From IMG/VR virus record IMGVR_UViG_3300025525_000043, positions 1 through 39,448 of that record: 39,448 nt of DNA; one strand, 5' to 3'. The translations under genes were made by a program, and so were the position numbers. Under the pieces are notes generated by a model. It was not told the origin of the DNA, ran no database searches, and saw only the letters and a list, made by a program, of their open reading frames with translations. The stretch comes from a virus. Shown in pieces: positions 464-39,448 of this stretch; the stretch's first letter is position 1; every line of letters starts with the position of its first letter.

Positions 464-513
464 TGGTGGGCAGTACAGGGTTTGAACCTGTGACCCCCGC
501 CGTGTGAAGGCGT
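464..513 (-). other. Prophage attachment-site scar: 3' part of tRNA-Val(CAC)
   Basis: On the reverse strand the sequence folds as the 3' half of a tRNA. The anticodon loop TTCACAC has anticodon CAC at 504-506. It is followed by the GGCGG stem strand, a 5-nt variable region, a 5-bp T arm with loop TTCAAAC (475-491), the acceptor strand ACTGCCC (468-474), discriminator A and encoded CCA (464-466). The expected D arm and 5' acceptor strand are missing upstream; the sequence diverges beyond position 513. This is the usual scar of a tyrosine integrase that recombines in the anticodon/T-arm half of a tRNA gene. The phage supplies the 3' half at the other end, so an intact tRNA-Val(CAC) is expected just right of the integrase, outside this window. 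Confidence 0.85.
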
Positions 514-35444: not shown

Positions 35445-35707
35445 TCACCATGACCCACATCGCCCTGTTTCTGTCGGCATTCTTCACCGTTTTTCTGCTC
35501 GGATTTCAGCAGAAGAATGTCCACGGCGAACACTACCTCGCCGCCATCGTCACCAGCGTCGGCATCGGTAGCGCCCAGATATTCCTGTGGCGCCTGGTCC
35601 CCCAGGCCGACATGGGCCAGATCGCCGCCACCCTGTGCGGCGGGCCGGTCGGCATCGTGGCGGCGATGTGGATTCATCCACGGCTGATGCGGCGGCGTAA
35701 CGCCTGA
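35441..35707 (+). CDS. Small three-helix membrane protein
   Basis: The product is 88 residues (or 85 from an ATG at 35450); GTG at 35441 overlaps the preceding stop as GTGA. Three hydrophobic segments are seen (IALFLSAFFTVFLLGF, YLAAIVTSVGIGSAQIFLW, TLCGGPVGIVAAMWI). It is the last native phage gene before the cassette array. Its stop codon lies just 1-2 bp from the first cassette boundary. Function unknown. Confidence 0.65.
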   Translation: MITMTHIALFLSAFFTVFLLGFQQKNVHGEHYLAAIVTSVGIGSAQIFLWRLVPQADMGQIAATLCGGPVGIVAAMWIHPRLMRRRNA

Positions 35708-35735
35708 ATTGGGCGCAGGCCCATAGAGGAACGAA

Positions 35736-35951
35736 ATGGATCACCAAGAAGCAAGCCAAAGGTGGTGCCCGTGGCGACCACTGGAGTATGTGAAGGAAGG
35801 GCGCGGCATTGCCAATTACCGGGTAGACGAGAGTTTTTCGCTTGGCACGAACAGCCGGTGCATCACGTTTGATTGCATGGCATGGCGCGACAACGAGTGC
35901 ATTCGGTTGATGGTGCCCAACATTCAAGATCAGCCGGGCCGCACTGGCTGA
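35736..35951 (+). CDS. Cassette 1 protein (71 aa)
   Basis: The product is 71 residues (MDHQEASQRWCPWRPLEYVKEGRGIANYRVDESFSLG...) with an AGAGGA Shine-Dalgarno. It has two Cys pairs (RCITFDCMAW). The last codons lie inside attC A, as in many cassettes. No family is recognised. It is the first cassette gene after the phage boundary. Confidence 0.65.
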   Translation: MDHQEASQRWCPWRPLEYVKEGRGIANYRVDESFSLGTNSRCITFDCMAWRDNECIRLMVPNIQDQPGRTG

Positions 35952-36000
35952 TGCAAAGACAAACACGCTCTGCGGCCTCGGCTGGATCGCAGGGTTAGGC
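35915..36000 (+). repeat. attC site A (86 bp)
   Basis: R'' is GCCCAAC, R' is GTTAGGC. The stem strands are GATCAGCCGGGCCGCA and TGCGGCCTCGGCTGGATC. They pair except for one extra G and one extra T on the right strand, the extrahelical-base pattern of attC sites. The loop is long, about 25-30 nt. Confidence 0.9.
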
Positions 36001-36026
36001 TGAACTTACAGGAAAGGACAGAGAAA

Positions 36027-36194
36027 ATGAAAAAGTGGATAGGTAGAGGTTTGATAGCCGCGCCGTTGATAGTTTTGTTTGCGACTGGAGTGGCGACAAA
36101 AGGATGGACCGAAACCTTAATTGGATGGGGTTTGATAATTGTCTTTTTAGGAATGATTGCTGGCGGCATGGCGTTACTAGATGACGATGCCTAA
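36027..36194 (+). CDS. Cassette 2 membrane protein (55 aa)
   Basis: The ATG at 36027 opens 55 codons. The product has two hydrophobic stretches (LIAAPLIVLFATGVA; LIGWGLIIVFLGMIAGGMA), with a KK start and an acidic tail (LLDDDA). Its stop TAA is part of the R'' core of attC B. Base composition is visibly more A/T rich than the phage. No family is recognised. Confidence 0.65.
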   Translation: MKKWIGRGLIAAPLIVLFATGVATKGWTETLIGWGLIIVFLGMIAGGMALLDDDA

Positions 36195-36252
36195 CGGCTG
36201 AATTCAGGGGCGGGCGGCTTTTCGCCCGTCCCGCTGGAATGATTTGTTAGAA
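36189..36252 (+). repeat. attC site B (64 bp)
   Basis: R'' is GCCTAAC and R' is GTTAGAA. The R'' complements TTAGGC at 35995, the 5' end of cassette 2. Strands ATTCAGGGGCGGGCG and its right partner pair except for unpaired G, G and T on the right side. Confidence 0.92.
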
Positions 36253-36261
36253 GGATGACAC

Positions 36262-36453
36262 ATGCGAGCATGGATTGTTGAAGGGCCAACAGGCGTATTA
36301 CTCCCGCAAGCCGCTGGCCGCACTAGAAAAGAAGCCATCCACAATATGCGTGAGTGGTGCGATTGGATTTTGCACCCAACATGGGCGCAGTTGAGAAAAG
36401 ACGGCTTTAAGGCAGTGAAGGTTGAGATAACCAAGATGCCTTCTAACGCATGA
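36262..36453 (+). CDS. Cassette 3 protein (63 aa)
   Basis: The product is 63 residues (MRAWIVEGPTGVLLPQAAGRTRKEAIHNMREWCDWILHPTWAQL...). An AAGGA Shine-Dalgarno precedes the ATG. A short beta start and helical middle suggest a small globular protein. The last residues overlap attC C. No family recognised. Confidence 0.65.
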   Translation: MRAWIVEGPTGVLLPQAAGRTRKEAIHNMREWCDWILHPTWAQLRKDGFKAVKVEITKMPSNA

Positions 36454-36501
36454 GTTGTGGGGCCGGCTGAAAGCCGGTCCCGCACGAACGCCGGGTTGGG
36501 C
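36441..36501 (+). repeat. attC site C (61 bp)
   Basis: R'' TTCTAAC complements the cassette's own 5' TTAGAA (36247). R' is GTTGGGC. Left and right strands pair around GGGCCGGC with unpaired G, G and T on the right strand. Confidence 0.92.
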
Positions 36502-36527
36502 TACAGGCGCATCTACAGGAGAGAACC

Positions 36528-36788
36528 GTGGGAATAGTTGAACGACTGAGAGCCGCAGACGAAAACAGCCAGCAGCGCATCATGGGAAGCCGCATATTCG
36601 GAGAAGCGGCAGACGAGATTGAGCGACTGACGGCTGCGCTAAAGAAGGCCAACGAACAAGCCGAGCACTTCGAACGCGAGTGGTATTCGCGCGGCGATGC
36701 GCTGGAGGACATTGCGACGGCGTACTACAGCGCCCCCGAAGTGCTGCGCGAGAAGGCTGCGCTCGCGCTCAGGGTGCCCAACAAATAG
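36528..36788 (+). CDS. Cassette 4 coiled-coil protein (86 aa)
   Basis: A GTG at 36528 with AGGAGAG Shine-Dalgarno opens 86 codons. The product is helical with a coiled-coil look (IFGEAADEIERLTAALKKANEQAEHFEREWYSRGD). Its end (RVPNK) overlaps attC D. Similar short helical proteins are common in phage genomes, but function is unknown. Confidence 0.65.
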   Translation: MGIVERLRAADENSQQRIMGSRIFGEAADEIERLTAALKKANEQAEHFEREWYSRGDALEDIATAYYSAPEVLREKAALALRVPNK

Positions 36789-36834
36789 GTAAGGGGGCCG
36801 CTTTAGCGGCTCCCGCTTGACCGCCGTGTTATGC
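36776..36834 (+). repeat. attC site D (59 bp)
   Basis: R'' GCCCAAC complements the cassette's 5' TTGGGC (36496). R' is GTTATGC. The strands pair (GGT-AAG-GGG-GCCGC against the right side) with extra G, G and T on the right strand. Confidence 0.92.
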
Positions 36835-36858
36835 CACGGCAACAACTTGGAGAGAACG

Positions 36859-37056
36859 ATGCTTTACTACCAGACAGATTCACAACCGCACATTAAGCGG
36901 CACCACGTAGACGGCCCTGTGCTTTGCCTGCGGGACGGGAGAATGCACTGGCTCACGTTGTGGGAGCGGCTGCTGCTCGCGCTGAACAAGACCGACGCAC
37001 TTACCCTTGAGCGGAAACATTGGGGGCATAACCAGAGGACAGAAAATGAGCAATGA
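36859..37056 (+). CDS. Cassette 5 first protein (65 aa)
   Basis: From the ATG at 36859 the product is 65 residues (MLYYQTDSQPHIKRHHVDGPVLCLRDGRMHWLTLWERLLLALN...). The leader AAC-ACTTGGAGAGAACGATG is shared with cassette 7. Its stop overlaps the start of the second ORF by 11 nt. A copy of R'' (GCATAAC, 37026-37032) lies inside its 3' end. Function unknown. Confidence 0.6.
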   Translation: MLYYQTDSQPHIKRHHVDGPVLCLRDGRMHWLTLWERLLLALNKTDALTLERKHWGHNQRTENEQ

Positions 37057-37210
37057 CGAAACTTACGCGCTGATTGACGAAACCAGCAATATGTTGCGCG
37101 GCATGACGCTAGACCCTGCTATCCCGCAGCACGCAAAGAGTGCGATGTGGCCGCAAATCCAAAAGCTGGAAGAAGCCCTGGAAAAGCTGGCAGACGGACT
37201 AGGGGCATAA
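37046..37210 (+). CDS. Cassette 5 second protein (54 aa)
   Basis: From ATG 37046, with AGAGGA upstream, 54 residues are read (MSNDETYALIDETSNMLRGMTLDPAIPQHAKSAMWPQIQK...). It is helical at its C-terminus. It ends in the R'' core of attC E. Lying in the same cassette as the previous ORF, it may once have been its own cassette. Function unknown. Confidence 0.6.
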   Translation: MSNDETYALIDETSNMLRGMTLDPAIPQHAKSAMWPQIQKLEEALEKLADGLGA

Positions 37211-37261
37211 CGCAAAAGTCAGCGGCGCCGGTACGGCGTCCGCTGGACTGCCGGGTTCGGC
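37205..37261 (+). repeat. attC site E (57 bp)
   Basis: R'' GCATAAC complements TTATGC at 36829. R' is GTTCGGC (one mismatch to GTTRRRY). Strands AGTCAGCGGCGCCG and CGGCGTCCGCTGGACT pair apart from one G and one T. Confidence 0.92.
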
Positions 37262-37290
37262 GGCTGGTGATTCTGAGAAAGGATAGAGCG

Positions 37291-37539
37291 ATGAACCATG
37301 ATCATGATGTGAAGGCGCTAGTAGATGCTGTTGCGCGGCGAGCGCAATGCCTGCCAGAAGAGGTCGAGTGGTACTCATGGCCGCAGGTATTTGGCACGAC
37401 CGCTGGCCCGTGCGGCGGCATCGGCGGCTGCACGATGACGACGTTTCAGGTTTTCGCATTCGATGCTCCAGGCGAGAAGACCCTGTACTGCGCTGGGAAG
37501 TGGCGCAAATGGAGCGGCGAGTTTCAGCAGGCATGGTGA
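37291..37539 (+). CDS. Cassette 6 protein (82 aa)
   Basis: From ATG 37291, with AAAGGA upstream, 82 residues are read. The sequence has EEVEWYSWPQVFGTTAGPCGGIGG and TMTTFQVFAFDAPGEKTLYCAGKW; it looks like a small globular protein of a type scattered in phage and bacterial genomes without known function. Confidence 0.65.
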   Translation: MNHDHDVKALVDAVARRAQCLPEEVEWYSWPQVFGTTAGPCGGIGGCTMTTFQVFAFDAPGEKTLYCAGKWRKWSGEFQQAW

Positions 37540-37540
37540 C

Positions 37541-37605
37541 GCCGAACGGCTGAATTGAGGGGCCGCGCGCTTTTTGCGCGGTCCCGCTCGGATGATGTGT
37601 TCGGC
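37541..37605 (+). repeat. attC site F (65 bp)
   Basis: R'' GCCGAAC complements TTCGGC at 37256, R' is GTTCGGC. Left strand GAGGGGCCGCGC pairs with GCGCGGTCCCGCTC, again with extra G and T on the right strand. Sequence is similar to attC B (GGCTGAATT start). Confidence 0.92.
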
Positions 37606-37632
37606 ACCGGAACTAACCACTTGGAGATAACG

Positions 37633-38001
37633 ATGGAAAACATTTGTGAGAACGAGCACCGCCGACCGGCCGACATGATCGGCGGTGTGTGGAGCGAACT
37701 GGAGCGCGCACTGGCGAAGTTCCCGACATGGCCCACTGACCCGCTGCACGCGCTGGCGGTGCTGGGTGAGGAATTCGGCGAACTGACCAAGGACGTGTTG
37801 CAGATGACCTACGAACCCGGAAAGACCAATGCCGAGAACGTGCGCAAGGAAGCGATCCAGACCGCCGCGATGGCTTTGCGGTTTGTGGCAAGCCTCGACG
37901 CTTATATTTACAAGGCCGGAGAGCAGCACCGGCAGGAGCAGTGGCAGGCAACACAGGACGCCTATCACGCAGGCGGTGGGCTGCACCCGTGCTACGACTG
38001 A
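37633..38001 (+). CDS. Cassette 7 MazG-like NTP pyrophosphatase (122 aa)
   Basis: From ATG 37633 the product is 122 residues. The stretch HALAVLGEEFGELTKDVLQMTYEP followed by ENVRKEAIQTAAMALRFVASL resembles the EExxE...ExxQ/D helical metal-binding core of MazG/HisE-like nucleotide pyrophosphohydrolases, which clean nucleotide pools or sense (p)ppGpp. In phages such enzymes can modulate host nucleotide signals. Its leader is like that of cassette 5. Metal ligands beyond the first motif are not certain. Confidence 0.7.
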   Translation: MENICENEHRRPADMIGGVWSELERALAKFPTWPTDPLHALAVLGEEFGELTKDVLQMTYEPGKTNAENVRKEAIQTAAMALRFVASLDAYIYKAGEQHRQEQWQATQDAYHAGGGLHPCYD

Positions 38002-38008
38002 GGGTGGG

Positions 38009-38031
38009 GCCGAACAATAAGTAGGGGGAGC
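38009..38031 (+). repeat. Truncated attC site G (left half)
   Basis: R'' GCCGAAC complements TTCGGC at 37600, then AATAAGTAGGGGGAGCG resembles the left strand of attC D. No right strand or R' follows; the phage gene at 38041 begins instead. The truncation marks the right boundary of the array. Confidence 0.75.
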
Positions 38032-38040
38032 GTGCAAGGT

Positions 38041-38343
38041 ATGGCATACAGAAAAACACGGCGCAGCACTGAAACCCTGGCGAAGATGCGGGCCGGGCGC
38101 GATGCCACGCGCATGGACAAACCAGCGCCAGATTATCCACCGGACAGGCCAGAACTGCGCCGCCGCATCGTCATCACCGACTACGACTTCGGCGAGCGCG
38201 TCCACACGCTCGACCTATACCGCACCAGTCGGGTGGACTGCTACCGCGTCCACGTCGACGGAAAGCCGTGGAAAGCGCGCATCGGATGGTCGAAGATTCT
38301 TGAAGGCTTGCGCAAGAGCCTGCCCAGGGTTGGGGCAGAATGA
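38041..38343 (+). CDS. Small phage protein near xis (100 aa)
   Basis: From ATG 38041 the product is 100 residues. It starts basic (MAYRKTRRSTETLAKMRAGRDATR) and has ITDYDFGERVHTLDLYRTSRVDCYRVHVDGKPWKARIGWSKILEGL, a small alpha/beta protein common beside prophage integrases. It overlaps the xis-like gene by ATGA. Function unknown. Confidence 0.65.
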   Translation: MAYRKTRRSTETLAKMRAGRDATRMDKPAPDYPPDRPELRRRIVITDYDFGERVHTLDLYRTSRVDCYRVHVDGKPWKARIGWSKILEGLRKSLPRVGAE

Positions 38344-38618
38344 CGTCGCCCGCCCTCCCCCGCCAGCAACTCTGCGCGGCCCTCACCATCAGCGAGTCCA
38401 CCGTGCGCCGGCTTGAGCTCGACGGCATGCCCTATACTCCCGTCGGGATCAGGGCAAAACGCTACGACCTGGACGAATGCAAAGCCTGGCTGCGGGAGAA
38501 TCAATGTCAATCTGGACAGACAAAAAGGGACGCCGACACGTCGGAATTATGGTCGACGGGCGCAGAGTTCACCGCATCCTGCCGGCGGACGCAACTGCGG
38601 GTGCTGCCAAGCAACTAG
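38340..38618 (+). CDS. xis: Excisionase-like HTH protein
   Basis: The product is 92 residues with a MerR/AlpA-type winged HTH (LCAALTISESTVRRLELDGMPYTPVG...KRYDLDECKAWL). Such proteins help phage integrases reverse integration. It overlaps the integrase gene by about 115 bp; the part after residue 55 has no clear fold and a shorter form may act. Position just before int supports the assignment. Confidence 0.72.
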   Translation: MTSPALPRQQLCAALTISESTVRRLELDGMPYTPVGIRAKRYDLDECKAWLRENQCQSGQTKRDADTSELWSTGAEFTASCRRTQLRVLPSN

Positions 38619-39448
38619 AGGCCGACCTGCGGGCGGCACTGGCCGTCGCCAAAACCCCGCGCATCCCCAACGACCCACGCCTCACCGAAGTCATCGCCCT
38701 GTACGTCGACCACGCCGAGACCCTGCGCAGCACCAAGACCGCCCTCGACCATGCCCGCCGCATCGCCTTGTGGCTGGAAAAATACCGGGCCAGCCAGGCC
38801 CGCCAGGCCGCCGCACACATCGTCAAGGACATGACCGGCCACTACGCCGCCGGCACCATCAACCGCAGCCTAGGCACCCTCAAAAAAGCACTGCGCCTGG
38901 CGTGGGAGCGCGGCATCACCACCACCGACTACAGCGCCCACGTCAAGCGCCTGCCCGAGAACAATGCCCGCAGCACCTACCTAAGCCTCGACCAGGTGCA
39001 GGCCATCGCAGGCCGCTGCAGCGTACCGGTGCAGGCCGCCATCTGGACCGCCCTGCTCACCGGCGCCCGACGCGGCGAGATCGTCAAACTACAAAAGGCC
39101 GACATCGGCCGCGACAGCCTCATCATCCACGCCGGCAACACCAAGACCCTGCGCACCCGCACCGTGCCCATCGTGCCCGCACTACGGCCATGGCTCAAGC
39201 ACATCCCACTGGATGTCGGCATCGAGGGAATCAAAAGCGCCTGGCGCCGCGCCCGCGTCGACGCCGGCATGCCTGACGTCAACTTCCACGACCTGCGCCA
39301 CAGCTGCGCAAGCATCCTCATCGCGTCTGGTTGCGACCTGTTCACGGTGTCGAAGATATTGGGGCACTCGTCCGTGCGCACCACGGAACGCTATAGCCAC
39401 ATGGAAATAGAGCAGCAGCGCAAGGCGATGGAAAAAGCGTTTTTGTGA
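38504..39448 (+). CDS. int: Phage tyrosine integrase
   Basis: From the ATG at 38504 with GGGAG upstream the product is 314 residues. The N-terminal arm-binding and SAM-like core-binding domains precede the catalytic part: Arg in GARRGE, HDLRHS (HxxR), GHSS and tyrosine in ERYSHM. This is the P22/lambda-type tyrosine recombinase; it lacks the extra helix patch of integron integrases. Its stop is at the last base of the window. The expected att partner and full tRNA-Val lie just outside. Confidence 0.93.
   Translation: MSIWTDKKGRRHVGIMVDGRRVHRILPADATAGAAKQLEADLRAALAVAKTPRIPNDPRLTEVIALYVDHAETLRSTKTALDHARRIALWLEKYRASQARQAAAHIVKDMTGHYAAGTINRSLGTLKKALRLAWERGITTTDYSAHVKRLPENNARSTYLSLDQVQAIAGRCSVPVQAAIWTALLTGARRGEIVKLQKADIGRDSLIIHAGNTKTLRTRTVPIVPALRPWLKHIPLDVGIEGIKSAWRRARVDAGMPDVNFHDLRHSCASILIASGCDLFTVSKILGHSSVRTTERYSHMEIEQQRKAMEKAFL

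Follow-up and report, generated by a model that had tools for sequence, protein, structure and literature searches.

What is the run of small genes and hairpins at positions 35709-38030 of a 39,448-nucleotide viral sequence, IMG/VR record IMGVR_UViG_3300025525_000043 (this whole stretch is hereafter called the window)? An earlier note on this DNA, made from the sequence alone, had read the region as an integron-type gene cassette array and had proposed a scan with an attC covariance model. Our analysis indicates that the region very probably forms the cassette array of a phage integron without an integrase of its own (IntI, encoded by intI), and that its genes are reversed relative to the attC recombination sites.

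attC sites and cassette polarity in the window

Two covariance models were used: R1, made from the window's own attC sites only, and R2, made from 74 bacterial attC sites only (alignment A4). The bacterial sites of R2 were collected with R1, so the R2 alignment leans on R1. A scan of the 39,448-base window with R2 returned exactly six sites, at 42.7-56.6 bits (expectation value, E, 1e-12 to 6e-9), as the earlier note had proposed, and no further match was found in the whole window down to E 10. All six have RYYYAAC and GTTRRRY boxes around an imperfect hairpin with extrahelical bases, as attC sites are defined. On plasmid R100, R1 recovered the attC of aadA1 (gene-sense strand, 45.7 bits), and it also recovered ~200 attCs across 47 bacterial loci. 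IntI was present in 18 of the 25 genomes with R1-type arrays compared to 0 of 14 controls. A scan of the window against Rfam at gathering thresholds gave nothing. The sites and related boxes are as follows.

35915-36000, minus strand: attC site 1 (R2 50.1 bits, E 6.4e-11)
36189-36252, minus strand: attC site 2 (R2 56.6 bits, E 1.2e-12)
36441-36501, minus strand: attC site 3 (R2 44.3 bits)
36776-36834, minus strand: attC site 4 (R2 43.7 bits)
37205-37261, minus strand: attC site 5 (R2 42.7 bits)
37541-37605, minus strand: attC site 6 (R2 47.5 bits)
35697-35714, minus strand: decayed attC at the distal array end, with only two boxes left (GCGTAAC...ATTGGGC) and the hairpin gone
38009-38015, minus strand: integrase-side array boundary GCCGAA|C (G|TTCGGC on the minus strand), a 7/7 match to the right box of attC site 6
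37026-37032, minus strand: relic box, a second GCATAAC, located in cassette 5 between its two overlapping open reading frames (ORFs), read from the sequence

The first six bases of each segment are the reverse complement of its own R'' box in 7/7 segments (35709-38015), at 6/6 positions each, and the R'' of the decayed site likewise matches its cassette start at 6/6. The rule holds although five different R'' boxes occur; the physically adjacent box matches at just 4-7 of 7 positions. This confirms the complementarity that the earlier note had described, differing cores included. The truncated seventh attC that it had placed at 38009-38015 is instead a normal integrase-side boundary, and the decayed site is the one at 35697-35714. 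The relic box at 37026-37032 is probably the scar of a lost attC whose deletion fused two cassettes.

The six attC sites all lie on the minus strand and the cassette ORFs all lie on the plus strand, so that the same-strand layout of classical cassettes is absent. Classical integrons follow a bottom-strand rule. Bottom strands have been reported as more recombinogenic (Qi et al. 2023, PMC9892861). Folding of the six window sites placed unpaired extra bases on the right arm of the gene-sense (plus) strand in every case; in site 2, for example, the right arm, reversed, reads ATT[C]CAG[C]GGG[A]CGGGC against the left arm ATTCAGGGGCGGGC. The R100 aadA1 attC, read on the gene-sense strand, carries its extra C and A in the left arm. 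Relative to gene direction the extra bases are thus on the opposite arm from R100, and the window sites point to the minus strand. The unpaired G and T of the earlier note were confirmed, but the arm that carries them marks minus-strand polarity. R1 and R2 both match the window on the minus strand whereas R1 matches R100 on the plus strand, and R1 gave one weak mirror match in the window (14 bits). All five testable window spacers are reversed, and no ORF led by a Shine-Dalgarno (SD) sequence was found on the other strand. Read on the minus strand, the array begins at 38014 (G|TTCGGC), runs through six attCs and ends with the decayed site 35697-35714 by a holin-like gene. The unit in the window is an attC plus the gene that follows it on the plus strand, and not the gene before it, as had been assumed in the earlier note.

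The window has at least two attC sites and no intI nearby, as in a cluster of attC sites lacking integron integrases (CALIN); neither intI nor attI lies beside the array, as they would in a complete integron. No integron integrase was found within the window, as the earlier note had stated for the array: the best score on the integron-integrase model TIGR02249 was 41-48 bits (cut-off 265), on the phage integrase.

Reversed arrays and whole-cassette differences in viral relatives

Viral arrays were reached in three ways: through relatives of cassette ORF 7 (58 loci), through relatives of the phage integrase (L060-L062), and by a scan for an attC pattern without bias towards either gene strand. 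Bacterial comparison loci were found by a similar pattern. Gene strand was scored with SD-led ORFs, taking the longer ORF per spacer against versus along the attC strand; counts that simply took the longest ORF were replaced, as their strand signal was noisy in GC-rich DNA. Reversed arrays were found on dozens of IMG/VR viral contigs. The ratio of reversed to canonical spacers was 113:10 in viral loci compared to 58:76 in bacterial loci (Fisher p 1.5e-17), and the viral spacers divided into 76:6 in loci with IntI and 37:4 in loci without IntI. Among ORFs filling at least 60% of the spacer, the ratios were 66:2 (viral) and 6:47 (bacterial). Locus L068 was the sole canonical-type viral array seen.

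Closely related viral loci differ by whole cassettes. L148 and L149 share 99.9% identity across the 4 kb that surround intI, but three whole cassettes differ between them; L137 and L138 differ by one. At all four differences, the shared sequence stops at ...AA and resumes at C... (left box AA|C on the plus strand, G|TT on the minus strand). L128 and L149 come from different phages (intI 76% identical, little else shared where compared) and have one cassette in common, 89% identical, with both ends at AA|C. Cuts at AA|C imply a unit of attC plus following gene, in agreement with the polarity deduced from the extrahelical bases. Gain and loss of whole units at G|TT was thus found in the relatives L148/L149, L137/L138 and L128/L149, and not for the window cassettes. 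A 95% identical gene in L155 and L156 was dropped as a case of cassette exchange because its start is not at AA|C.

These differences bear on an alternative in which the hairpins serve the phage operon as RNA, in termination, processing or antitermination, and are not recombination sites. The hairpins do sit between operon genes, and attC hairpins are thought to be weak terminators (PMC9892861). However, both attC models match at E ~1e-8 or better, the core boxes vary from cassette to cassette yet match their own cassette start, and gain and loss of whole units at AA|C contradicts a purely RNA-based explanation. We regard it as barely credible, while an additional RNA role may exist.

Several other reversed arrays stood out. 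The densest array seen, with thirteen attC sites and reversed genes, occupies 4.5 kb of a viral contig (L066, 1-4484). L064, L065 and L070 have in common a 99.97% identical reversed array with ~nine attC sites and several ORFs of 200-270 aa, and no intI is on these records. L152 (5056-7635) carries a reversed array of six attC sites; its IntI groups with bacterial IntIs, outside the viral clade described below, and it has a cassette stretch in common with L137/L138. L152 suggests that the reversal arose or was adopted more than once.

Integron integrase, attI and cargo of the viral family

The window contig is a temperate phage: genes for packaging, portal, tail, repressor and integrase (PHROG matches) occur together with a likely attachment site (tRNA 3' end at 464-500). 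An integron-type array between ordinary phage genes, as originally described, is borne out. The genes that flank the array are listed here.

35450-35707, plus strand: holin-like gene, left of the array (PHROG 7045, E 1.6e-13)
38041-38343, plus strand: small phage gene at the position where L061 has intI, with no family match and no relative among the loci fetched
38340-38618, plus strand: excisionase-like helix-turn-helix gene (PHROG 66, E 8.1e-7)
38504-39448, plus strand: phage tyrosine integrase, not IntI (PHROG 1, E 3.2e-47)

The same holin gene also borders an array on the left in L120, L125 and L131. In L061, which is on the same contig as L120, the phage integrase and the excisionase are 91% and 90% identical to those of the window. 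The gene order of L061 is holin, array, intI, small gene, excisionase (xis), phage integrase (int), all on one strand, and its IntI scores 465.7 bits on TIGR02249.

A scan of IMG/VR with six IntIs gave 522 candidate stretches that encode an IntI relative, of which the best 80 were fetched and examined. The catalytic residues R, K, H, R, H and Y are kept in 71/71 distinct viral IntIs tested. In a quick maximum-likelihood tree, 47 viral IntIs formed one clade with a Shimodaira-Hasegawa-like approximate likelihood ratio test support of 99, and none of 58 bacterial IntIs fell inside it; the tree was a short search with viral rows picked by similarity to L061, so the clade borders are provisional. 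The bacterial rows of this first tree were top scorers; to check for this bias, those bacterial IntIs that are nearest to L061 were included as well. The clade then gained one member from a bacterial genome, L258. This IntI lies in a prophage-like stretch. Its neighbours are a repressor-like gene, a gene for a phage-type integrase and an HNH gene resembling that of the window, identities that were read from the sequences and not by family scan. A second viral clade (16 IntIs, support 94) mixed with two bacterial rows once these were added (support 22), and we make no claim on it.

A terminase large subunit is encoded on the same contig in 21 of 41 IntI-bearing records tested (two profiles; one match weak). 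IMG/VR includes proviruses with host flanks and, with these two profiles, half of the tested records have no terminase match, as would be expected if the IntI-bearing contigs were misfiled chromosomal integrons or host flanks and the viral family an artefact. The terminase genes found in the other half argue against this, as do the position of the intI locus between holin and phage integrase, the separate clade of viral IntIs, and the phage integrase, HNH and repressor-like genes beside the one member from a bacterial genome. We consider such an artefact highly improbable. In the cultured-phage collection, just nine records had an IntI-like match, none more than 56% identical to the L061 IntI. 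In a separate record, KX853513 (Virus Rctr41k; L284, 4680-5678), a gene annotated as xerD encodes an integron integrase (TIGR02249 383 bits); ten genes lie upstream of it on the same strand, and no attC was found there with R2.

In 34 of 37 loci, the final cassette is followed, ahead of intI, by a box that agrees at 7/7 positions with the right-hand box of the final attC; in one more the agreement is 6/7. In most loci, the box is followed by a conserved stretch with the consensus CTTAAATTCNACGACACC...TGTCGC.TAAC, in many cases exactly 67 bases ahead of intI. The site occupies the position of attI and has the G|TT cut on the minus strand. In the relatives, the attI site begins at the boundary equivalent to 38009-38015 of the window.

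The ORFs of the window cassettes are as follows.

35736-35951, plus strand: ORF 1, 71 aa, Shine-Dalgarno sequence present
36027-36194, plus strand: ORF 2, 55 aa, membrane-like, SD-led
36262-36453, plus strand: ORF 3, 63 aa, SD-led
36528-36788, plus strand: ORF 4, 86 aa, coiled-coil phage type (weak match, PHROG 37129, E 0.0077)
36859-37056, plus strand: ORF 5a, 65 aa, SD-led
37046-37210, plus strand: ORF 5b, 54 aa, phage family (PHROG 13384, E 3.3e-8)
37291-37539, plus strand: ORF 6, 82 aa, SD-led
37633-38001, plus strand: ORF 7, 122 aa, common phage gene (PHROG 2831, E 2.9e-18)

ORFs 4 (weakly), 5b and 7 thus match phage families; no cassette ORF of the window matches a Pfam family above its cut-off. 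Among the relatives, 9 of 10 tested array ORFs match phage families, which also confirms the coding strand, and the cargo includes DNA methyltransferases, a DHH phosphoesterase, a 3'-phosphoadenosine-5'-phosphosulfate (PAPS)-reductase-like protein and an exonuclease. Relatives of ORF 7 were found at 58 viral loci. They adjoin attC sites in some phages; in many, no attC was found near. The occurrence of ORF 7 relatives with and without attC suggests that phage genes can become cassettes.

The cargo and the L061 locus also bear on another possible origin, in which a host integrase placed a classical bacterial array of ordinary cassettes (a CALIN) at a secondary G|TT site in the phage by chance. 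This would account for the sharp cassette boundaries and the lack of intI in the window. Moreover, a G|TT target on the minus strand suits either end of the array, and the array-free holin would read RRRNNK* into the next ribosome site. Against this, the reversed layout is a minority in bacteria (6/53 full-length ORFs) and the rule in viruses (66/68), the cargo belongs to phage families, L061 has intI, and the arrays of L120, L125 and L131 lie beside the same holin gene. A chance insertion of this kind is accordingly unlikely.

A putative phage integron and its known counterparts

We consider it likely that temperate phages carry an integron lineage of their own, separate from the bacterial one, in which reversed phage-gene cassettes (methyltransferases, exonucleases and others), drawn from a pool private to phages, would be swapped by IntI and read as part of the phages' own operon, and that the window phage is a member that needs IntI in trans. 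Unlike those of classical integrons, the window genes point against attC and with the phage operon (holin, array, xis, int). The array would be expressed from a phage promoter at its distal end and not from the cassette promoter (Pc) beside intI. In the relatives, IntI encoded beside the conserved attI would insert and excise complete units, recombining folded attC strands at G|TT, with new cassettes entering at attI next to intI. If intI is read with the phage operon, attI would lie upstream of intI, and only cassette genes that face intI would be served by the phage promoter, so that reversed cassettes would be selected. For the window phage, as for L060, either the host or another phage would have to provide an integrase in trans, or the array would be frozen. 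Loss of intI from the window by deletion is plausible. Alternatively, the array may have inserted directly at a G|TT site where the holin gene ends, since the joined flanks give an intact gene end and a ribosome site.

Several points weigh against reading the region as the array of a phage integron without its integrase. Most window cassettes have no close relative among the loci fetched. The right boundary of the window array, CAATAAGTAGG, does not fit the viral attI consensus CTTAAATTC. As the window has no intI, a loss at this very locus would be deduced from the relatives, and the close relative L060 also has no intI, with its array a few genes from the holin. A promoter scan of the window gave nothing above chance. 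Finally, nearly all of the relatives are metagenomic contigs, and recombination is deduced from sequence.

Phage-borne integrons as such have been published: a survey of 10,705 phage genomes reported 3 complete integrons, 1 In0 and 17 CALINs (Qi et al. 2023, PMC9892861), and phage attC sites were shown to recombine with attI1 (PMC9892861). The arrays described here resemble these phage integrons and CALINs in having attC arrays, some with intI, inside phage genomes. We re-examined the complete integrons of Vibrio Va_90-11-286_p16, described as a subset of the chromosomal integron of its host (PMC9892861), and of Shewanella M16-3. In both, most genes are divergent from intI and on the attC strand. 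In contrast, the genes here are reversed, the cargo is phage-type and the IntIs form their own viral clade. The published phage CALIN TJE1 gave no match with R1, and P12002L gave no attC match with R2. With six complete attC sites and no intI, the window array is like a CALIN but differs in that its genes oppose attC and the array sits where a phage integron family has its intI locus. It resembles the class 1 integron of R100 (aadA1) in attC structure, extrahelical C and A occurring at equivalent places, and the L061 IntI is 55% identical to the class 1 IntI1; however, the R100 gene is on the attC strand and driven by Pc, whereas the window genes are on the opposite strand. As in the 'reverse' integrons of Spirochaetota (PMC9668308), intI and the cassette genes share one direction. 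In Spirochaetota, intI itself is in reverse orientation (PMC9668308), whereas the family described here keeps the standard intI-attI-attC geometry, and it is the cassette genes that are turned round. No earlier report of a viral IntI clade or of genes-against-attC arrays was found in the open-access literature, with subscription journals and preprints outside this search. As far as this search shows, what is new here are the phage integrons with reversed phage-gene cassettes.

The interpretation of the earlier note was thus right in kind; its polarity was wrong, and its scope was too narrow for what appears to be a viral integron family with phage cargo. The array is more than a set of host cassettes acquired by a phage. 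The note had also proposed that phages move integron cassettes between hosts. Carriage by a phage stands, but swapping of genes between phages fits better, as the family has phage cargo and viral IntI. Such cassettes would enter a bacterial attI gene-backwards for its promoter. If correct, this reading would provide a mechanism for mosaic phage accessory regions, in which single genes, DNA methyltransferases included, are swapped site-specifically and not by rare illegitimate recombination. Several questions would become directly testable: does phage IntI work on phage cassettes, is the shuffling of cassettes in the course of infection driven by prophage induction or the SOS response, and does gene polarity keep the cassettes of bacteria and of phages in separate pools? 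The number of IMG/VR candidate stretches (522, best 80 examined) suggests a large viral reservoir overlooked by cultured-phage surveys.

In a DNA similarity search of cultured phages and plasmids, just scattered HNH and ORF 7 matches to the window were found. Contig L002 is identical to the window over 5,705 bases, array included, and may derive from the same sample as the window or from a related one. At the other end of the window, one feature was read from the sequence as a likely left attachment site.

464-500, minus strand: 3' end of a tRNA gene (T arm plus CCCACCA)

This stretch matches (87% over 47 bp) the DNA just downstream of the related integrase of L062. It is probably attL, and the prophage would then span from ~464 to the right end of the window. 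Positions 1-231 hold, on the minus strand, the first part of a DEAD-box helicase gene, which is host flank of the prophage.

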